Part shown: in pieces, positions 1 through 9,273 of the stretch | Numbering within the stretch: position 1 is the first letter of the stretch | Layout: each line of letters opens with the position of its first letter | Assembly: GCA_025056175.1 (NCBI GenBank) | Contig: JANWWK010000063.1 | Span: forward strand, 1-64,000 | From: Anaerolineales bacterium | Lineage (GTDB): Bacteria; Chloroflexota; Anaerolineae; Anaerolineales; Villigracilaceae | Direction: 5' to 3' | Length of the DNA: 64,000 bases | Made by a program: the position numbers and the translations under genes | Notes under the pieces: model-generated | What the model was told of the DNA's origin: nothing | Seen by the model: the letters and a program-made list of their open reading frames with translations, nothing else | The model's database searches: none

Positions 1-2254
1 CAGAACCGATGTACGAGGCGACCTGGTCACCCAGATGCGGGCGGGCAACGGCTACGATGGCCTGGTTCGACTGAATGGCAATCCCACCCACCCAGGGGTT
101 GGGAATCTCAGGTACATATTCCACTGCGCCAATGTCGCAAACCAACACACTGTCCAGGTTACCATCCTGTGGACGCGCCGCGCCGCGCTGGTCTTGATTA
201 GCGCAGAAGTTATTCACAATCGCATCAATCGCAGGAGAACCCCGCAGCAAGGCATGCGTGCGCGTGAAACCACCGTTATTGGCAAGCGGCCCCAATTGGG
301 GGTTCTGCCCCACGATAAAACCGTTGATGCCATGTATTGCTCCACAGGCATTCGCGCCGGTTCCTTGTATCAGGGAATACTCTCCGGCGATGCTGCCGCC
401 CGCACCGTTGACGCAATCGCCGTTCACGCTGCCCGCCAGGATAACGCCGCGCAGGAAGGGCTGACTGCTGCTCAGATTGTACATGCCGCCGCCCCCGCCA
501 GCATCCTCAGCCGTATTGCCATAAAATGTGACATTCATCAGGTTGGGGCTGCTCTGGTAGTTCATCATCCCGCCGCCCTGCCGCTGGGCCAGGTTGCCGG
601 AGAAGGTCACGTTCGTCAGCGTGGGGGTGCTGTTATCGTTGGACATGCCCCCGCCATAAGCGGCTTCGTTTCCAGAGAAGGTAACGCGGTTGAGCTGCGG
701 CTGATTGTTGCCGAGGTGATTGCGCATCCCGCCGCCGTTGTAGGCGCCATTTCCTGAAAAGGTGACATCGGTGAGGAGCGGATTGCTGCCCTGGTAGTTG
801 TACATGCCGCCCCCCGCGCCGGGCGTGCTGTTGCCGGTGAAGTTGACTCGCTCCAGGGTAGGACTGCTGGTGTAGTTATACATCCCACCCCCACCTACCG
901 TAGAGGAAGAGGTCCGGTTGTTGAGAAAATCTACGTTTTTGATGAACGGATGACTGACATAGTTGTACATCCCGCCACCCACGTTGGCCTGGTTGCTCTG
1001 GAAAGTGGTCATTTGCAGATTCGCATTGCTGCCATTGGAATTGAGCAGCCCGCCGCCAGCCTGGGTTGCAATATTGGATGTGAAGGTAGTCACCCAGACA
1101 TACGGTCGGCTGTTGTCGTTGTACGCGCCGCCGCCAAAATCGGCCTGATTACCGCTGAATGTGCTGAAAAGAATATCGGGATTGCTCTTCAGGTTATACA
1201 TCCCGCCGCCTGAAACGGATGAATTGCTTTGGAACGTGACATTCGAGAGACCCGGGCTGCTGTTGTCGTTATACATGCCCCCGCCCTTGTCGCTGGCAAC
1301 ATTGGAATTAAAACTCACATTGGTGAGATTGGCGGGGCTGTTAAAGCGGTTAGCCATTCCGCCGCCCACAGGCGCCTGATTAATAAAAAAGGTGACATTC
1401 TCCAGCGAGGGCGCGCTATTGGAGTTATCCATGCCCCCGCCAAAAGACAGGCTGGCGATGTTGTTGGTGAAAGAGCCGTTCGTAAGCGAAAGCGTGCTGT
1501 TGATATTCGCGAGGCCGCCGCCAACATAGAAAGCGTAATTATTGACGAACTCGACTGCGGTCAGCGAGAGCGCTGCGCACGCGACGCAAACCATGCCGCC
1601 GCCCAGACTCGCGTAATTGCCTGAGAATTTCAGGTTGCGCAAGGTTGCGCTGCTCTGATAGGCATATACGCCGCCGCCTTTGTTATTTGGGTCGGCGTTA
1701 TCGTTGGCCTGCCCGGCGGTCAGGATAAAGCCATCCAGAATGGCCGTACTGGCGTTGCCGCCGGTGGAGACGACGTGGTAGGCATTGTCCCCGATAATGT
1801 CGTTGACCAGTTCGACAATGAAGTTACCATCGCTGTTGGCATCGTTGTTGTCCACATCGCCGCTCAGAATGGTAGGATTGGCAGCGAGATTGCGCTGGGA
1901 AAGGAGCGTCTCAGTTCCGACAAAGCCGCCGTAAATTGCCACGCCGTCTTCCAGCGTAAAGGTGGCAACGCGCGAACCGGGGGGGTAAACGCCTCCTTCA
2001 TCGGGATAATACACCCCCCTGGCGACCCACACTTCATCGCCGCTGTTGGCAACCGTCAGCGCGGCCTGCAAGGTTCGAAAGGCTTGCGCCCAGCTTAAGC
2101 CACTGTTCGAGTCGTTGCCACCGCTGGCGCGAACGTAGTAACGAGCGCCCGCCGCGCGTGCATTTTGTCCCAAGGGAGCCAAGACCAGGCTGCCCAGCAA
2201 CAGGAAAACGAGAAGCAAACGATGCGAGATGCGAGAAAAAGAATCAGGGTTCAT
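1..2254 (-). CDS. Secreted parallel beta-helix (pectate-lyase-fold) surface protein, 3' end outside window
   Basis: Reading the minus strand from an ATG at 2254 gives an open frame of about 751 codons that runs off the window edge, so the C-terminus is missing. GGAGG lies 7 bases before the start. A signal peptide (hydrophobic LLLVFLLLGSLVLA, then ARA) is followed by YYVRASGGNDSNSG and a Leu/Ala segment typical of right-handed beta-helix proteins. About 14 imperfect repeats of roughly 30 residues follow, built around GGGM(Y/S)N, S-P-L and NVTFSGN; one repeat maps near 1900-1600 and others continue to about 500. After the repeats come AIHGINGFIVGQNPQLGPL and RGSPAIDA, the usual end-cap of 'choice-of-anchor' polymorphic repeat proteins. 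The likely location is the cell surface. Polysaccharide binding or lysis is possible, but no catalytic residues can be assigned. Confidence 0.85.
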   Translation of the reverse strand, partial: MNPDSFSRISHRLLLVFLLLGSLVLAPLGQNARAAGARYYVRASGGNDSNSGLSWAQAFRTLQAALTVANSGDEVWVARGVYYPDEGGVYPPGSRVATFTLEDGVAIYGGFVGTETLLSQRNLAANPTILSGDVDNNDANSDGNFIVELVNDIIGDNAYHVVSTGGNASTAILDGFILTAGQANDNADPNNKGGGVYAYQSSATLRNLKFSGNYASLGGGMVCVACAALSLTAVEFVNNYAFYVGGGLANINSTLSLTNGSFTNNIASLSFGGGMDNSNSAPSLENVTFFINQAPVGGGMANRFNSPANLTNVSFNSNVASDKGGGMYNDNSSPGLSNVTFQSNSSVSGGGMYNLKSNPDILFSTFSGNQADFGGGAYNDNSRPYVWVTTFTSNIATQAGGGLLNSNGSNANLQMTTFQSNQANVGGGMYNYVSHPFIKNVDFLNNRTSSSTVGGGGMYNYTSSPTLERVNFTGNSTPGAGGGMYNYQGSNPLLTDVTFSGNGAYNGGGMRNHLGNNQPQLNRVTFSGNEAAYGGGMSNDNSTPTLTNVTFSGNLAQRQGGGMMNYQSSPNLMNVTFYGNTAEDAGGGGGMYNLSSSQPFLRGVILAGSVNGDCVNGAGGSIAGEYSLIQGTGANACGAIHGINGFIVGQNPQLGPLANNGGFTRTHALLRGSPAIDAIVNNFCANQDQRGAARPQDGNLDSVLVCDIGAVEYVPEIPNPWVGGIAIQSNQAIVAVARPHLGDQVASYIGS

Positions 2255-2377
2255 AGGTTCCTCCGGCATTTTTCACACCAATCGAAGTAAAACGTAGGGC
2301 AAGTCTCCAACCTGATGGTAATTCCGCCCACGCCCGTTTTGGGCGTCATCTTTCTTTTCGCGCAGATTTGATAATTT

Positions 2378-3331
2378 TTATGGGCAGGCGCCGGTTGCCG
2401 GGTCAATCACGCAACCGGGCTGGGCATTGTCATCGGTATTGGGCTTAGCATCATTTTTGTTGTTGGGGCCGCAAGTTCCCAAGGTAATTTTGTAACTTTG
2501 CGTAGCGGTCGTATCCAAGAACGCAGACCTGCGTTGGCAGATAAAGCCACCACCATCCCGGTTTAGAGATATGTCATAGCCTTTGGGACAGGGAGAAAGA
2601 TTCAGCGCTTTGACATCCAGGCAACAGTTATAAGCGGATGAGAAGACTGTGCCTGTTGGGCAAAAAGGGGCATTGGAGACAACAACGTATTCGCAAACGC
2701 CGTCGTAATTCAGTTTAAAATCAGGCGGGCAAGACGGCTCTACCTTCACAGGCAGATTGGCATCTGGCGGCGTACAGTAATCCTGGACCGTGATAGTCAC
2801 CTTCGAACCGACTGGGCCGTAACAAGCCACCTTTTTGGAATACAACTTTTCTTCTTCGACAACCGCACTGCAATTTGGCGGCAAATTGACGTATGTGGAT
2901 GTTCCCTGCGGCAGAACGACTGTGGCCCCACCCAGTTTGGTAACCGGGTTGAGGCAATAGGAATTGACCTGCAAGGTTTGGGGAAACATGACCGTGCAAG
3001 TGTATAAGTCGTGGGTCTTGATATCTTTGGGCGGCTTGGTGGGCGTTGGAACAACGCACATCGCCGGCAGAGCCGCCGGTTTTTGAATCACCGATTGGTC
3101 CGAAGTCGGTTCTGACTCAAGTCCATTGCCTCCTCCGCGCGGGAAAACCTGATAGCCCTGAAAGGCTACCAGCAGCAGAGCAAATGCCGCCAGCAGCGCG
3201 CCGCCACCCCCCAGCAGAAGCGGAAGTAGGCGCACCGATCCATCCGCCATATATCGTGCACGGATGAATCCGAGTATGCCTATTAAAATCAACGCGCCTG
3301 CGGCGGAAAACAATAAAATGATTGCTTTCAT
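2378..3331 (-). CDS. Cys-rich extracytoplasmic protein with N-terminal membrane anchors
   Basis: This 317-residue protein is unknown by name. The start is ATG at 3331 (MKAIILLF), with AAAGGAA about 9 bases upstream; a longer in-frame extension would run into the preceding gene and looks unreal. Two hydrophobic segments (residues about 2-20 and 36-62) are separated by a short polar loop. After a Gly-rich linker the rest is polar and probably outside the cell. That part holds many cysteines in pairs, including APFCPTGTVF, YNCCLD, LSPCPKGY and GGGFICQRR, which suggests several disulfides. It ends DPATGACP. It sits 16 bases after the lipoprotein at 3348-3968 and is probably in the same transcript. 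A binding or adhesion role is a guess. Confidence 0.8.
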   Translation of the reverse strand: MKAIILLFSAAGALILIGILGFIRARYMADGSVRLLPLLLGGGGALLAAFALLLVAFQGYQVFPRGGGNGLESEPTSDQSVIQKPAALPAMCVVPTPTKPPKDIKTHDLYTCTVMFPQTLQVNSYCLNPVTKLGGATVVLPQGTSTYVNLPPNCSAVVEEEKLYSKKVACYGPVGSKVTITVQDYCTPPDANLPVKVEPSCPPDFKLNYDGVCEYVVVSNAPFCPTGTVFSSAYNCCLDVKALNLSPCPKGYDISLNRDGGGFICQRRSAFLDTTATQSYKITLGTCGPNNKNDAKPNTDDNAQPGCVIDPATGACP

Positions 3332-3347
3332 TTGGCATGTTCCTTTC

Positions 3348-3968
3348 TCACCTGCCAGACATCCGCTCGAAAATCCGCTGCGCCATATCAATGATTCCCG
3401 ATTCCGTTCCCATGAACAGAATTTCCTGCGGGTTATAGCGGAAGATGAGCGTTTGACTGCCCTGGCGAACGTAAACCACATACTGCCCGGTCACGTTCGA
3501 CCTCCAGGTGTAACTTTCGTCTCCCAAACCATCAATGCTGTTGACCACGATATCGGATGGCTCATTCGAGAGTTCAGATTTGCGCGTCGATTCCCACACG
3601 GACGTGTCGCCGGAGAAGCCTGCCTGCAGGTAAAACAGGCTCTCTTGCGTCCCGCCCTTGGGGGTGTACTTCCACTCACAGGAAGTGATTCCGGGAGAGG
3701 CGTTCTCTACCAGCGTGGAAGCAGCCCCAAACACCAGGTTGTTCCACTCATCGGCAGGGATGAGTTTGGCGCAGGGGATGACCACATTCGGGTTGGGACC
3801 GCTCTCTGCTGGCGCGCTGACAGGCGGTTCGGTCGGCGCGGGGGGAACGGATGGGGCGGATGAGGCAGGCGGCTCACCGGCTTGCGGCGCGGAGAAAAAT
3901 CCGCAGGCCAGGCTGCTCAACACCAGGACAAGAACGGCCAGAAGTAACGGTAAACGAAGCCGAGACAT
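3348..3968 (-). CDS. Lipoprotein of unknown function
   Basis: This 206-residue protein has a lipoprotein signal peptide (MSRLRLPLLLAVLVLVLSS) and lipobox SLAC, with the lipidated Cys at residue 22. A Pro/Ser/Thr/Ala-rich linker (PPASSAPSVPPAPTEPP) follows, then a globular domain of about 140 residues containing VIPCAKLIPADEW, SCEWKYTPKG and ESTRKSELSN. Two cysteines in the domain could form a disulfide. ATG at 3968 is preferred over the upstream GTG at 3974 because GGAG lies 5 bases before the ATG but touches the GTG. The domain resembles DUF3558-like lipoproteins in general layout, but I cannot confirm this. It lies between other extracytoplasmic proteins on the same strand. Confidence 0.8.
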   Translation of the reverse strand: MSRLRLPLLLAVLVLVLSSLACGFFSAPQAGEPPASSAPSVPPAPTEPPVSAPAESGPNPNVVIPCAKLIPADEWNNLVFGAASTLVENASPGITSCEWKYTPKGGTQESLFYLQAGFSGDTSVWESTRKSELSNEPSDIVVNSIDGLGDESYTWRSNVTGQYVVYVRQGSQTLIFRYNPQEILFMGTESGIIDMAQRIFERMSGR

Positions 3969-4016
3969 ATTCACTCCTTTCGCAATTTGAACAGGGATTA
4001 CACTGTCCCTTATCCT

Positions 4017-4790
4017 CTAAGGGATGCGATAAGAGACAAGTTCTGAAATATACGTGCCCTCCAGCCCCGATTTGACCACGCCAACGCCCTGGGCATACCA
4101 CAAAAAGCCATGCGTATCGAACGGCGGTGAGCCGTGAATGGTCATCGAGCCGTTTTGTTCGACCTTGAGCGCGTAGAAGGTTCCGGCGGGGACGGTTATG
4201 GTTTCATAGCCCAGTGCTTTGTAAGTGGTTTTGATGGTCGCCGAAAGAGTCACTTCGCCGTCTGAACTGCCCACTACGGTGATGGTCTGCGACCAATCAT
4301 CGCCGACCTGCATGTCGTCGGGGACGGTCACGCCGTCATCGTTGGTGGTAGAAAGGGTAGAGCTGCCGCTTTCGTCAGAATACGTCGCCGAGATGCCTGG
4401 CACATTCAGCAGGATGACGCCATCCTTGCCGCACGTGCCATCGAGCGTAAAGACACTCCCAACATCCCGAACGGTCAATGTAAACGAGCCGTCATCCACA
4501 ACAGACATGGAATGCGTTGCCGTGGTGGGAGTTTCCTGCTGCACCTGAATCTGATATGTCCAGGTAGCGCCATCCACCACCGGATAATACGGATTGTTGC
4601 AGCGGTCCTTCGGGTTGAGGGGAGCTGCCTGGGGCGTGGGTGTCTCTGTAATGACCGCCGTCACCACCGGGACGGCAAAGCCTGACGTTGCAGTGGGGGG
4701 CATCGGGATTGAATCCGGTGGGAACGCGCCCAGCGAACAGGCGCTGGTGACCAGAAAAACCAACAACAAAAATGCCATCATTTTTTTCAT
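4017..4790 (-). CDS. Lipoprotein, paralogue of the downstream-numbered gene at 4906-5670
   Basis: This 257-residue lipoprotein starts at ATG 4790 (MKKMMAFLLLVFLVTSAC; lipid Cys at residue 18). GAGG lies 5 bases upstream; the GTG at 4808 lacks this spacing. A Thr/Pro linker leads to a beta-rich domain starting CNNPYYPVVDGATWTYQI and ending GFLWYAQGVGVVKSGLEGTY. The body contains GYETITVPAGTFYALKVEQ. The same landmarks, in the same order, occur in its neighbour at 4906-5670, so the two arose by tandem duplication. The overall pattern (measured 'content' domain, then 'PAGTF-ALKVE') recalls DUF3108/TapB-like secreted proteins. The function is unknown. Confidence 0.82.
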   Translation of the reverse strand: MKKMMAFLLLVFLVTSACSLGAFPPDSIPMPPTATSGFAVPVVTAVITETPTPQAAPLNPKDRCNNPYYPVVDGATWTYQIQVQQETPTTATHSMSVVDDGSFTLTVRDVGSVFTLDGTCGKDGVILLNVPGISATYSDESGSSTLSTTNDDGVTVPDDMQVGDDWSQTITVVGSSDGEVTLSATIKTTYKALGYETITVPAGTFYALKVEQNGSMTIHGSPPFDTHGFLWYAQGVGVVKSGLEGTYISELVSYRIP

Positions 4791-4905
4791 CCTGTCCTCG
4801 CTTTTCACTCACTGCCCGGCATTCTTTGGAACGAACGCCACCAGAAAACGGGCAAACCAAAACGAAAGTGCGCAGGTTTCATATTCTTCTCCAAAGCATT
4901 GAAGT

Positions 4906-5670
4906 TTAAGGAAAATCGTACACGGTCAATTCCAGCACCGGAGCGCCATCCATAGCCGAACGCACCACTCCCACCCCTTCGGCGTACCACAGGAAGCCGT
5001 GCATGCTCACTTGCTGTCCAAACACCGTCACATAACCACTCTGCTCCACCTTGAGCGCGCGGAAACTTCCCGCCGGTACGACGATGTTCTCGAAGCCAAC
5101 GGCAACATAAGTTGCCTCAATCAGTGAAGTCCCTGCTTCGGTGGTGACATGCAACGTTTGCGACCACTGACTGCCCGGCGCGACATCGTTAGGCAGGCTC
5201 ACTCCGCTGTTCGAGAAAGAGACCGTCGTCGAAGACCCGGATTCGGCGGAAGTGGTGGTCCTGGAACCAGGAACTTGCATCAGAACGAGTCCCTCGCGGG
5301 TGCATTGTCCCTCAATGTAAGCAGTCAGGTCTGAGCTCTCCACCTTTATCGTGAAAACGCCCGAGGGATTATCGGCCACCATTGTTTGAATGACATTTTG
5401 ACCCGTTGAGACGTGGTAAAAGAACGTTGCATTGTTGACCACCGGATAGTAGGGGTTTTTGCATGGCGCAGGCTGGTCGAGCGGGCCGCTGCCAATCGCC
5501 GCTGGGGTTAGTGTTGGCGTCGCCGAAGGGGTGACAATCGGACTGGCCTGAATCTGAATGACGGGAGTCACCGGCGCGGGCGGAATGGGAAGACCGGTTG
5601 GAACAGGTTGGGGCAGCGAGCATCCGCTCAAGAACAACCAACCAAGAAGATAAGTGAATAACTTTTTCAT
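4906..5670 (-). CDS. Lipoprotein, tandem paralogue of 4017-4790
   Basis: This 254-residue lipoprotein begins at ATG 5670 (MKKLFTYLLGWLFLSGC; lipid Cys at residue 17). GGGTGAG sits just before the start, and the stop codon of the small gene 5672-5908 lies one base upstream, which suggests translational coupling. The domain runs from CKNPYYPVVNNATFFYHV through GFENIVVPAGSFRALKVEQ to GFLWYAEGVGVVRSAMDG, matching its paralogue landmark by landmark. Differences are concentrated in the linker and the middle of the domain. It is probably anchored on the outer face of the membrane. No enzyme motif is seen. Confidence 0.82.
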   Translation of the reverse strand: MKKLFTYLLGWLFLSGCSLPQPVPTGLPIPPAPVTPVIQIQASPIVTPSATPTLTPAAIGSGPLDQPAPCKNPYYPVVNNATFFYHVSTGQNVIQTMVADNPSGVFTIKVESSDLTAYIEGQCTREGLVLMQVPGSRTTTSAESGSSTTVSFSNSGVSLPNDVAPGSQWSQTLHVTTEAGTSLIEATYVAVGFENIVVPAGSFRALKVEQSGYVTVFGQQVSMHGFLWYAEGVGVVRSAMDGAPVLELTVYDFP

Positions 5671-5671
5671 C

Positions 5672-5908
5672 TCACCCTTTCTTGATTTTCGGGTCATTTT
5701 CTACGTCTGTTGGCACATCAAACGCTGGCGGCTTCCATTCCAGGCCGGGCGCAAAACGGCGGACGAACTCTCCGGCCTGCTCCCAACTGGCAAAGTGACT
5801 GGATTCCCGGCTGGGCAAGTGAACGATTTCGCCGCGCCACGTTCCGGTGGTCGTGTCATTCCAGAGACGAAGCACGAACGTATTCCACTGAATCGAAGTC
5901 GTGGTCAA
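5672..5908 (-). CDS. Small conserved-looking hypothetical protein (78 aa), TTG start
   Basis: The frame starts at TTG 5908, with GAAGG 6 bases upstream, and ends at a TGA one base before the ATG of the lipoprotein at 5670. The protein has no signal peptide or membrane segment. Its sequence (FVLRLWNDTTTGTWRGEIVH, then HFASWEQAGEFVRRF) looks like a small compact beta-beta-alpha domain. It is the first gene after the direct-repeat promoter at 5951-5995, so it would lead the secreted-protein transcript. I recognise no function. The good ribosome site and the coupling support it being real. Confidence 0.68.
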   Translation of the reverse strand: MTTTSIQWNTFVLRLWNDTTTGTWRGEIVHLPSRESSHFASWEQAGEFVRRFAPGLEWKPPAFDVPTDVENDPKIKKG

Positions 5909-5950
5909 AGGCAGCCTTCTTTCGTTGGAATGAATGATTCAGATGTCTTC

Positions 5951-5995
5951 AGTGTAGGGGAAAGGTGCTTCCAGAAGTGCTTCTACCAGCGCTTC
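5951..5995 (-). promoter_or_regulatory. Promoter with three heptamer direct repeats, SARP-operator-like
   Basis: Read on the minus strand, three heptamers GAAGCGC (5989-5995), GAAGCAC (5977-5983) and GAAGCAC (5965-5971) are separated by 5-bp spacers, giving a strict 12-bp period. The last repeat ends 8 bp before a -10 box TACACT (5951-5956), and there is no good -35 box. SARP-family activators are known to bind heptamer direct repeats spaced about one helical turn (usually 11 bp), with the proximal repeat 8 bp from the -10. The adjacent gene 6037-9273 encodes a protein with the SARP DNA-binding pair of domains. The site would drive the 5908-to-1 gene series. No binding has been shown. Confidence 0.55.
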
Positions 5996-6036
5996 GGAAA
6001 GGGGAGAATTAATAGGAAATTTGGGGGAATTTTGCG

Positions 6037-9000
6037 CTACACGTCATCGCCGCGGCGCAAACGCTCGAACAGAAAGGTGGTTTCGGGCGCGGGCTGGGTC
6101 CGGAGTTCTGTGGAAAGCAGACGGCTCAAGCGCTGATAGTGCTGAACGGCCTGCGCGGTTTCCCCCAGGCGGGCCAGGCAACGCATCAGTTCGCGGTGCG
6201 CCGTTTCGAGATACGGTTCGAGCGCAATCAGGCGGCGATAGACTTCGGCGGCCAGCCCGTAGCGGGCATCGGAAAAATACAATTCCCCCAGCGTCAGACG
6301 CGCTTCGAGACTGCGCCGCCGCAATTCCTCCCGCCTCGAAATGGCCCATTCGCCCGCGTCCATATCGGCCAGGAAATCGCCCTGATACAGCGAGAGGGCC
6401 TCCTCCAGGCGGCGGGCGGCTTCGGCACGCCCCGCCGGAGTGACCGCCGATTGCAATGCGCGCCCGGCCTGCGTCAGAGCCGCCTCGAAGGTCTGGACGT
6501 CGAACCAGTGCGGCAGGGCGCGGTTGAGCGCGTAGGCTTCGTTCTCGAAAACCACCCATTCCGCTTTCCCCAAGGCGCGCCGCAGGTGGTGCATGGTGCG
6601 ATGGAACGCGCTGCGGAGTTGGGTGGGCGAAGCCTCCGGCCACAGGTCGAGACCAATTTGCTCTTTGGTCGCCGCAGGGTGCAGAAGCAGGTAAAAGAAC
6701 AATTCCTTCGCTTTGAGATACGTCCAGTCCGTATCGGTCAGGTTGCGTTCCCCCACCAGTACGCGAGAGGCGCCCAACGCAAACGCGCGCCATTCCGGCA
6801 CAGGCGCAGCGGCGGGGACTTCCGTTGGACGCTCTTCGCCCAGGGCTTCGGCCACGATTTGTTCCAACGATACTGCGTGTCCTTCTGACCAGGCAGACTC
6901 GAAAGCGGCCTGACCGAGCGCGGTGCGCAAAGCAGCAAGCGTCTGCTCATGGCGTCCACGTTCCGGCGGCAGGACGGGCATCTCCAGCGCTTCGCGTTGG
7001 GCTGCTGCGGCGGCCTGCCAGCGGGCGGCGCGCTGCGGCTGACCCTGCCGCCGGGTGGCTTCGGCCAGCGCTTCCAGCGATTCCACCAGGCCAGATGGCA
7101 ACGCCAGGGAGTGGTAGAGCGACAGGCTTTGCCGCAGCAAAGATTGAGCGTGCTCCTCGTCCTGGCGGGCCAGCGCGGTCAGACCAAGCGCATAGAGCGC
7201 CAGGGCGCGGCCTGCCTGGTCACCGATGGCTTCTAACTGCGCCAGGGCATCGGCATACAAACTCTGCGCCTGCGCCAGGTTGCCTTCGTCACGCGCCAGG
7301 TCGCCCAAATTTATCCAGACGAAGCTCAGCCGCATGCGGTCGTTCATCCCCTGGCACAATGCCACCGCTTCTTCGAGGCAGGCGCGTGCCCGGGCGGCTT
7401 CTCCCGAACAGCGCGCCGCTGCCCCCAGGTTGTTGAGCGCCGAGACCATGCCAGCCTTGTTGCCCAATTCGCGGTACAAGAGCAAACTCTCCTCCAGCGC
7501 CGCCAGCCCACGCGCAATTTTGCCCTGAGCGATGAGAATATCGCCCAAATTGCTGAGCGCCAGCGCCACGCCGGAGGTGTCGCCTATCTGCCGCTTGAGA
7601 TTGAGCGCTTCTTCATAGCACTCCAACGCGCGGCGATACGCTCCCTGCCGCCGGGCCAGCGCCCCCAGGTTGATGAGCGCATTGCTCGTGCGTACTCCAT
7701 CCCCCAGGCGGCGATAGAGCGCCAGGGACTCTTCGTGTAAGGCGGCGGCACGGGCATAATCTCCCTGTTCGGTTGCCAGGATTCCCAACAAGGTAAGCGG
7801 CGCGCCCAACCGGGCCAGGTCTTGCGCTGCACGCGTGACCTCCAGACTGGCCTCGGCCAGGGTTGTGGCGCGCGGGAAATCGGATTGTCGAAAGGCCAGC
7901 GCGGCGGCGGCATATTGGGCTTTGGCCAGCACCGGCGGGGAAACGGAGGCAGAATCGGCGGGCAAAGCGGCCTGTAAGCGGAGCAGTTCCTCCAGCCAGT
8001 TGCGGCCTTCAGTCAGATAGCCCCGGCTTTGCCAGAACATCCACAGCGACCCGGCCAGCCGCAGGCCGGTTTCCATCTCGCGGCTGACGCGTACCCACTG
8101 CAACGCCAGGCGCAGGTTGTCCAGGTTGGCATCGAGCAAGGCCAGCGCCGGGCGGGCTTCGGGGCCGGCCAATTTTGCTTCGAGCTGCGCGGCAAAGGAG
8201 GCGCACCACGCCAGATGCCGCGAGCGGGTGGCAGCAGTTTCTCCCGCCGCTTCCAATCGTTCGCGGCTATATTGACGGATGGTCTCCAGCAGGCGGAAGC
8301 GCGGCGGCGCTTCGGCTTCGCGCGGCAACATCGAGACCCATGATTTCTCCACCAGTTCGGTCAACAGGTCGAGGACGCCCGGTTCGGTCAGTTCCGCGCC
8401 GCACACCGCTTCGGCCATCTCCAACGTGAACGAACCCGCAAACACGGAAAGCCGCCGGAGCAGAACCTGCTCCGGTTCGGTCAGGAACTGATAACTCCAA
8501 TCCATCGTCGCGCGCAGGGTTTGGTGGCGCGGCAGCGAATCGCCCGCGCCCCGCGTCAGAAGACGGCAGGCATCGTCCAGGCGTTCGGCAATTTGGGCAA
8601 GCGAAAGTACCTTCACCCGCGCAGCAGCCAGCTCGATGGCAAGCGGCAGTCCATCCAGACGGCGGCAGATGGATGTCACTGCATCCAGATTGTCGGATGT
8701 GAGTTGAAACGACGGCAAAGCGCGGGCGGCGCACCCGGTAAACAATTGAACGGCATCCGATTCGCGCGCTGTATCGGCTCGTTCCGGCAGGGCGAGGGGC
8801 GGCGCCTGCCAGACCTGCTCCTGCGGCAGGCCGAGCGGCTGAAGGCTGGTCGCCAGCACGCGGACATTCGGACAGCCCTCCAGCAAGGCGCGGGTCAGCG
8901 CAGCGCAGGCGGCCAGCACATGCTCGCAGTTGTCCAGAATCAATAAGACGCACTGCGAACGCAGTGCGTCGGTCAGCGCATCGAGCAGGGAACGGTCGGG

Positions 9001-9273
9001 AGGTTCGCTCAGCCCCCAAACGGCAGCCACAGCACGGGGGACATAAAGCGGGTCGGTGACGGGGGACAAATCGCACCACCAGGCGCCATCGCCAAACTCC
9101 GGCAAGAGCAGACTGGCGGCGTGCAGCGCCAGGCGCGTCTTCCCGCATCCGCCTGCTCCGGTCAGGGTCAGCAGGCGCGTCGAGCGCATCTGCCGGCAAA
9201 CCTGCGCGCTCTCCCGCGCGCGCCCGACAAAGGGGGTGGAAAAGACGGGCAGGTTGTGATTGGATGGTATCAT
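6037..9273 (-). CDS. SARP/AfsR-like transcriptional regulator (ATPase-TPR-winged helix-BTAD)
   Basis: This 1078-residue protein starts at ATG 9273, with GGGGGAT just upstream and the preceding gene's stop one base away. An N-terminal P-loop ATPase of the STAND/NB-ARC type has GAGGCGKT at residues 39-46 and a Walker B-like VLLILDNCEH; its sensor region includes GLPLAIELAAARV. Roughly residues 400-760 are tetratricopeptide repeats, with repeated NLG...RRQG and ALNNLG units. From about 832 comes an OmpR-type winged helix (LKAKELFFYLLLHP) and from about 925 a BTAD domain (YQGDFLADMDAGEW to LSTELRTQPAPET). In classic AfsR the DNA-binding part comes first; here it is last, as in other known STAND regulators. 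It probably activates nearby operons when a ligand frees the ATPase switch. Confidence 0.88.
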   Translation of the reverse strand: MIPSNHNLPVFSTPFVGRARESAQVCRQMRSTRLLTLTGAGGCGKTRLALHAASLLLPEFGDGAWWCDLSPVTDPLYVPRAVAAVWGLSEPPDRSLLDALTDALRSQCVLLILDNCEHVLAACAALTRALLEGCPNVRVLATSLQPLGLPQEQVWQAPPLALPERADTARESDAVQLFTGCAARALPSFQLTSDNLDAVTSICRRLDGLPLAIELAAARVKVLSLAQIAERLDDACRLLTRGAGDSLPRHQTLRATMDWSYQFLTEPEQVLLRRLSVFAGSFTLEMAEAVCGAELTEPGVLDLLTELVEKSWVSMLPREAEAPPRFRLLETIRQYSRERLEAAGETAATRSRHLAWCASFAAQLEAKLAGPEARPALALLDANLDNLRLALQWVRVSREMETGLRLAGSLWMFWQSRGYLTEGRNWLEELLRLQAALPADSASVSPPVLAKAQYAAAALAFRQSDFPRATTLAEASLEVTRAAQDLARLGAPLTLLGILATEQGDYARAAALHEESLALYRRLGDGVRTSNALINLGALARRQGAYRRALECYEEALNLKRQIGDTSGVALALSNLGDILIAQGKIARGLAALEESLLLYRELGNKAGMVSALNNLGAAARCSGEAARARACLEEAVALCQGMNDRMRLSFVWINLGDLARDEGNLAQAQSLYADALAQLEAIGDQAGRALALYALGLTALARQDEEHAQSLLRQSLSLYHSLALPSGLVESLEALAEATRRQGQPQRAARWQAAAAAQREALEMPVLPPERGRHEQTLAALRTALGQAAFESAWSEGHAVSLEQIVAEALGEERPTEVPAAAPVPEWRAFALGASRVLVGERNLTDTDWTYLKAKELFFYLLLHPAATKEQIGLDLWPEASPTQLRSAFHRTMHHLRRALGKAEWVVFENEAYALNRALPHWFDVQTFEAALTQAGRALQSAVTPAGRAEAARRLEEALSLYQGDFLADMDAGEWAISRREELRRRSLEARLTLGELYFSDARYGLAAEVYRRLIALEPYLETAHRELMRCLARLGETAQAVQHYQRLSRLLSTELRTQPAPETTFLFERLRRGDDV

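Follow-up and report, generated by a model that had tools for sequence, protein, structure and literature searches.

The window, i.e., the whole 64,000-nucleotide stretch of DNA analyzed here, contains a real, conserved SARP-like operator and, very probably, its regulator (Table 1). We consider it very probable that the three heptamers at 5951-5995 serve as binding sites for the product of the regulator gene at 6037-9273, which, in the SARP manner, activates the gene of a 78-aa protein and the surface-protein genes from the hexamer TACACT, a reading that extends the behavior of AfsR to this DNA by analogy. The SARP operators reported among the literature matches listed, in the excerpts available, come from actinomycetes and mostly from antibiotic clusters. 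What is new here is a SARP-like operator outside the actinobacteria that co-varies with its regulator. An earlier note on this DNA had proposed a SARP regulon for surface proteins, and the comparative tests described below support a SARP-like one, in which the binding of the regulator to the operator would follow the AfsR model. The Anaerolineae-like affiliation given in that note fits as well.

Table 1. Features of the putative regulon in the window
Feature	Coordinates	Strand	Remarks
Regulator, 1078 aa	6037..9273	minus	AAA/NB-ARC-like NTPase, TPR repeats, C-terminal winged helix and BTAD (SARP-like)
Distal heptamer GAAGCGC	5989..5995	minus	12 bp from middle copy
Middle heptamer GAAGCAC	5977..5983	minus	pair motif at period 12 kept in type-B relatives (see text)
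Proximal heptamer GAAGCAC	5965..5971	minus	8 bp before -10; kept in type-B relatives
-10 hexamer TACACT	5951..5956	minus	without -35
78-aa first gene	5672..5908	minus	TTG start inferred, AGAAGG in front
DUF3108-like lipoprotein, 263 aa	4906..5697	minus	Pfam PF21347 4.3e-9; LSGC lipobox by eye
DUF3108-like lipoprotein, 263 aa	4017..4808	minus	Pfam PF21347 3e-11
DUF3558-like lipoprotein, 208 aa	3348..3974	minus	Pfam PF12079 2.5e-4, below cut-off; similar proteins at other type-B stretches
ORF, N-terminal membrane segment, then cysteine-rich part	2378..3481	minus	no Pfam match at 1e-3; true start probably internal (MKAIILLF...)
Signal-peptide-like protein with beta-helix-type repeats	1..2269	minus	translation, by eye; off contig end

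Read 5' to 3' on the minus strand, the promoter region consists of GAAGCGC, TGGTA, GAAGCAC, TTCTG, GAAGCAC, the 8-bp stretch CTTTCCCC, and TACACT. Direct reading thus agrees in full with the original description of two GAAGCAC and one GAAGCGC copies at a period of 12 bp, 8 bp from TACACT, coordinates included. The claimed absence of a good -35 is likewise borne out, the best match to TTGACA at 16-18 nt being 1/6, and, as is to be expected of a promoter lacking this element, a scan with the sigma-70 consensus does not flag it. Terminator-like sites in positions 1-6400 show no excess over shuffles.

Triplets of the quality seen in the window, defined as one neighboring pair identical and the other at least 6/7 at any period of 8-22, arise in two cases when the 128-bp intergenic stretch is dinucleotide-shuffled 5000 times. 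Matches of 13/14 in the 64-kb window fall at three distinct places, namely that of the 5951-5995 triplet, 3169 (CAG-rich), and 9524 (the same count is eight when tallied over both strands). The heptamer triplet by itself is therefore rare but not unique, and the weight of the case rests on its position and conservation. A chance repeat in an intergenic stretch would be in line with the two other triplets of similar quality, but it fits poorly with the shuffle frequency and with the recurrence of period-12 repeats in 12 distinct places; conservation rules it out, and we give this explanation practically no weight.

The conservation was followed through the small protein. Relatives of the 78-aa protein (E ≤ 1e-3) are found in 41 of 152 family genomes and in 127 of 298 class-sample genomes when the loose group C is counted. 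The 80 distinct places whose upstream DNA was examined divide by protein motif into 49 of type A, 9 of type B, and 22 of the looser group C, repeats of the same place (L111-L115, L136) being left out of the counts. The close kin of the window protein constitute type B and share a motif like I[IV]HLP[DS]R. Nine type-B places, with the window counted, occur among the 396 sampled genomes (L117/L165 being one place, and a more distant one), and a profile scan adds three more (L182, L184, and L185), which gives 12 distinct type-B places. That scan of contigs with the profile of the 78-aa family yielded 10 loci, which apart from L182, L184, L185, and L187 are places already counted, while the same scan with the single 78-aa sequence gave no match. 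L187 (Ruegeria), a 22-residue match without a heptamer pair, looks like a chance match and was dropped.

The type-B operator pattern, [GT]AAGC twice at period 12 followed by 7-8 bp and TANNNT, is present in 8 of the 9 sampled B places. The conservation of the repeats in related genomes, on which the earlier note had made its proposal depend, is confirmed, as period-12 heptamers of the [GT]AAGC type occur in all 12 distinct type-B places. The strict core with TANNNT at 7-8 bp is found in 11 of these (8 bp in six, 7 bp in five), and the twelfth, L164, has TAAGCCC-N5-TAAGCGC without a good -10. The heptamer first described, GAAGCAC/GAAGCGC, is accordingly real in the window, but its conserved form is better written as [GT]AAGC[AG]C. 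A regulator gene is visible upstream in 11 of the 12 places, the contig of L161 beginning too late. From the regulator stop to the first heptamer there are 41 nt in the window, 7-114 nt in six other type-B places, 416 nt in L182, and 911 nt in L160. In L158 (8171-8177) and L159 (8962-8968) the first heptamer, TAAGCGT, opens with the regulator stop codon TAA, and in L163 short tandem repeats (GAGCGGT units) lie directly after 2482, between the regulator stop and the operator.

In the type-A operator pattern, GTAAC is followed by GT-any-[AT]-C at period 11, 8 bp, and TANNNT. This pattern is present in 43 of the 48 A places that have 150 nt or more upstream; L080 and L093, with less than 150 nt, were left out of the operator count. 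The five misses comprise two places with GTACCC as the second copy (L052 and L056), one with TATTGA (L090), one in which the gap is 7 bp (L105), and one, L098, where GTACCCA is followed after 8 bp by TATTGT at a site further upstream. When the strict type-A core is considered, TANNNT stands at a gap of 8 in 38 of 40 places, and the -35 positions of 38 A operators give a mean of 1.61 matches vs 2.33 for the background. In 21 of the 43 type-A promoters (e.g., L053, L055, L057-L060) the -10 hexamer is followed at 6-8 nt by an ATG or GTG, an arrangement that suggests leaderless transcripts.

Several controls bear on these patterns. The full A and B operators were found neither at other periods between 8 and 15 nor on the opposite strand (0 in both cases). 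Bare type-B core pairs appear in A or C places once at period 11 and once at period 15, bare type-A core pairs in B places twice at period 15 and twice on the opposite strand, and, for A or C places, the opposite strand has one bare type-A pair, at period 9. When pairs of 7-mers (6/7) are counted without any motif, period 12 yields them in 6 of the 9 B places, where 20 shuffles give a mean of 2.0 and a maximum of 3; period 11 yields them in 47 of the 71 A or C places, where 20 shuffles give a mean of 16.1 and a maximum of 20. Both operator patterns had been drawn up after inspecting the first loci. In 20 places fetched later, the frozen type-A pattern is present in 6 of the 9 classed A and 1 of the 11 classed C, the latter being L199, whose protein reads like type A, and in these 20 places it occurs at no other period and not on the opposite strand. 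The three type-B places fetched later, which are not fully independent because they are close kin of L160 and L163 in the tree, all carry the period-12 operator, the gaps being 7, 8, and 8 bp. Type B has therefore held fully in the later places and type A in part.

Within the 1.4-1.5 kb examined upstream, 51 of 71 places (7/7 B and 44/64 A or C) have a BTAD-like gene on the same strand, and 2 further A or C places have one on the other strand. In the group C places L104 and L118-L135, where neither operator is present, the small protein has looser relatives, some of them next to BTAD-like genes. In group C as a whole such a gene is upstream at six places (L104, L118, L124, L125, L131, and L135) and on the other strand at two (L121 and L137), and the regulators concerned may use other sites. 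An operator is present in only one of 21 group C places, L101, and the protein there resembles type A, so the small protein can occur without a type-A or type-B operator.

Operator type follows the regulator. The 36 regulator domains compared in a tree include 10 of type B and 25 of type A, which a single branch with support 100/99 separates from each other; L149 stands in the tree without a group, and L146, L153, L154, and L048, unaligned in the winged helix, were not used. Two of the 25 A regulators (L138 and L143) come from places without a strict core match (L082 and L098). The recognition helices, compared by eye in the alignment, read S-x-x-QLR-x-x-x-HR in B and A-x-R-[ND]-F-[KR] in A. 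Taken together, the clade split, the differing helices, and the operator types show that heptamer and period change jointly with the regulator clade, while the distance to the -10 stays.

This joint shift also weighs against the idea that another protein of the cell binds the repeats and that the neighboring BTAD gene is linked to them by chance. The genome of 3.57 Mb does have BTAD matches at five places, and the binding of the adjacent regulator is itself deduced from analogy. However, it is with the clade of that adjacent regulator that heptamer and period move together, and the stretches around three other BTAD places of the genome (L048, L049, and L050) contain no pair with a -10 at 7-8 bp, L048 having a single bare type-B pair, at period 12 and with no -10. 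We therefore regard a different binder as very improbable and retain the regulator at 6037-9273 as the protein that would act on the heptamers. In the same genome, KAAGCR-N6-KAAGCR-N9-TANNNT has one site without mismatch, which is the window operator. With one mismatch allowed there are 4 sites vs 6 for the reversed control. A wider regulon in this genome was thus considered and rejected, the three extra sites not exceeding that control, and no further targets of the regulator are claimed. The looser GAAGCNC-N5-GAAGCNC, with at most one mismatch, has fewer sites (71) than its reversed control (112), so a bare heptamer pair is uninformative alone.

The gene upstream of the repeats had been described as ending in a winged helix and a BTAD, and this description is upheld. 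Pfam matches are BTAD (5.7e-27), TPR_12 (1.1e-30), and AAA_22 (9.1e-5, below its cut-off), with the BTAD at residues 923-1072 of the 1077 scanned and the NTPase and TPR parts preceding it; the C-terminus is an OmpR-type winged helix followed by the BTAD. A profile of nine C-terminal domains, run against the PDB, matches AfsR at 3.9e-12 (16-266, winged helix and BTAD) and EmbR at 1.3e-8, and also many TPR proteins, designed and natural. The AlphaFold2 model of the last 268 aa (pLDDT 88.1) aligns by VIA-align with AfsR at Z 21.8 (rmsd 3.3, 242 residues) and with EmbR at Z 19.1, and TPR proteins reach Z 12.3 and below, which makes AfsR and EmbR the folds nearest to the model. A phmmer search of the PDB with the winged helix and half of the BTAD as the query gave no match, whereas a longer query did. 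The N-terminal NTPase and TPR parts are also common to the MalT-type regulators (STAND), and the type-A regulator L046 matches the MalT model over 16-533 at 3.6e-60 (below its cut-off). MalT and LuxR-LAL regulators have a C-terminal LuxR-type helix-turn-helix, a place that in the window regulator is taken by the winged helix and BTAD.

The closest known system is AfsR of Streptomyces coelicolor (a large SARP; 8hvr, 8k60, and 8jke), which has in common with the window regulator the winged helix and BTAD, the NTPase, and the TPR, and whose operator has direct repeats with the 3' copy 8 bp from the -10 and a poor -35 (PMC10936776, excerpt). The domain order differs. In SARPs the SARP domain is N-terminal with further domains behind (PMC10936776, excerpt), while in the window regulator the SARP-like domain is C-terminal and the NTPase/TPR part N-terminal. 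The claim of a SARP DNA-binding pair stands as to its AfsR-like character, by sequence and predicted structure, with the correction that the pair sits at the C-terminus, unlike in known SARPs. The claim of a SARP-type repeat layout stands in part. Heptameric direct repeats are present, and the 8 bp between the 3' repeat and the -10 equal those of AfsR, Aur1PR4, and FdmR1 (PMC7040171, excerpt), but the SARP period is 11 or 22 bp (PMC10936776, excerpt), compared to 12 in the window and type B and 11 in type A. The window further differs from AfsR in its heptamer, [GT]AAGC[AG]C, in the surface-protein-like genes behind the operator, and in its Chloroflexota host. The usual setting of SARPs, the control of secondary-metabolite clusters in actinomycetes, is not strictly defining, and here the downstream genes are lipoprotein-like. 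As domain order and period were both tested and differ, we do not claim strict SARP membership.

The SARP-LAL regulators offer a second comparison. PimR is likewise a large multidomain regulator with three heptameric direct repeats, and it also binds a unit other than 11 bp, namely a 10-bp unit in its secondary operator (PMC5930380, excerpt). Unlike the window, it has a main operator without -35 overlap, an N-terminal SARP domain, and an antibiotic cluster as its setting (PMC5930380, excerpt). EmbR of Mycobacterium tuberculosis (2fez and 2ff4) has the same winged helix and BTAD fold, with an FHA domain instead of the NTPase/TPR (PMC10936776, excerpt). Spacers of 4-15 nt are given for SARPs in a review (PMC10972967, excerpt), so the 5-nt spacer of type B is not outside everything reported, and a 12-bp repeat unit may well have been seen elsewhere. 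The titles and opening abstract lines of the matches listed, which cover few subscription papers, contain no report of 12-bp SARP repeats or of Chloroflexota SARP operators. Two papers that mention SARP with Chloroflexota (PMC13248718) or BTAD with Chloroflexi (PMC12791661) deal, by their titles, with other matters.

For AfsR, two SARP protomers sit side by side on adjacent direct repeats, sigma region 4 is docked by them in lieu of the -35, and inhibition by the NOD and TPR domains lasts until ATP binds (PMC10936776, excerpt). Since the window fits the AfsR layout, we infer the same mode of action for its regulator. The C-terminal winged helix would bind the three heptamers, with protomers probably side by side, one per heptamer, and the BTAD would offer a docking place for sigma region 4 as a substitute for the missing -35. 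Transcription by RNA polymerase would then begin from TACACT and cover the 78-aa gene together with the surface-protein genes that follow, and in the absence of a signal the SARP-like domain would be kept inactive by the NTPase and TPR part at the N-terminus. Binding, activation, co-transcription of these genes, and gating by a signal are all ascribed to the regulator by analogy with AfsR (PMC10936776, excerpt).

We have also considered that the heptamers are indeed the operator of this regulator but serve repression or autoregulation rather than SARP-style activation. The heptamers overlap the place of the -35, where a bound protein could block the polymerase, and the regulator gene is just upstream of them; yet there is no -35 to block, the -10 stands at the fixed distance from the proximal copy that characterizes the AfsR activator layout (PMC10936776, excerpt), and the operator follows the regulator gene instead of preceding its start. 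Such a role therefore appears improbable, and SARP-style activation remains the preferred reading. More tentatively, and with rather less than even confidence, the window may exemplify a module of the Anaerolineae-type Chloroflexota with three parts, namely a STAND regulator that ends in a SARP-like domain, a promoter without a -35 that co-evolves with the regulator clade in its heptamer and its period (11 or 12 bp), and a dedicated small protein produced early that feeds back on the regulator; type B would then rely on a dimer stepping 12 bp. No description of such a dimer geometry was found for SARPs in the excerpts of the matches listed. The places compared here form a natural regulator/operator series outside the actinobacteria, in which the distance to the -10 is kept while heptamer and period vary with the regulator, so that SARP recognition and dimer spacing become directly testable through swaps of regulators and sites. 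The series also supplies a pattern for predicting Chloroflexota regulons, and it brings to light a small protein family without a name that is a marker of many such promoters.

The model of the 78-aa protein has three strands and a helix (pLDDT 78.5), and comparisons of this fold gave nothing convincing (best Foldseek E 0.47, best VIA Z 3.5), so that we assign it to no fold family; no Pfam family was found for the sequence at 1e-3 and no NCBIfam family at 0.1. The statement that the six downstream genes comprise the small gene and genes for surface or secreted proteins agrees with our inspection, in which signal sequences were judged by eye: three products have lipoprotein-like N-termini, one has a membrane segment, and one is a truncated secreted protein of beta-helix type. 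This last gene is cut by the contig start, which puts the end of the gene series out of view. Eleven of the 12 distinct type-B places, L165 being the exception, have a DUF3558-like lipoprotein in their stretch. It was found by phmmer at nine places (L158, L159, L160, L161, L163, L164, L182, L185, and the query locus L184), and in the window and L162 through Pfam scores below the curated cut-off. In L158, L159, and L161 this gene lies between the operator and the small gene.

Of the 35 non-B stretches examined, 25 contain a relative of KAS III, frequently accompanied by an acyl-CoA ligase, thiolase, or SDR. The type-A modules (L045, L046, L047, L138-L148, and L166-L177) combine a BTAD regulator, a GTAAC operator of period 11, the small protein, and relatives of KAS III and acyl-CoA ligase, and may represent an uncharacterized acyl or polyketide-like pathway, possibly under SARP-like control.
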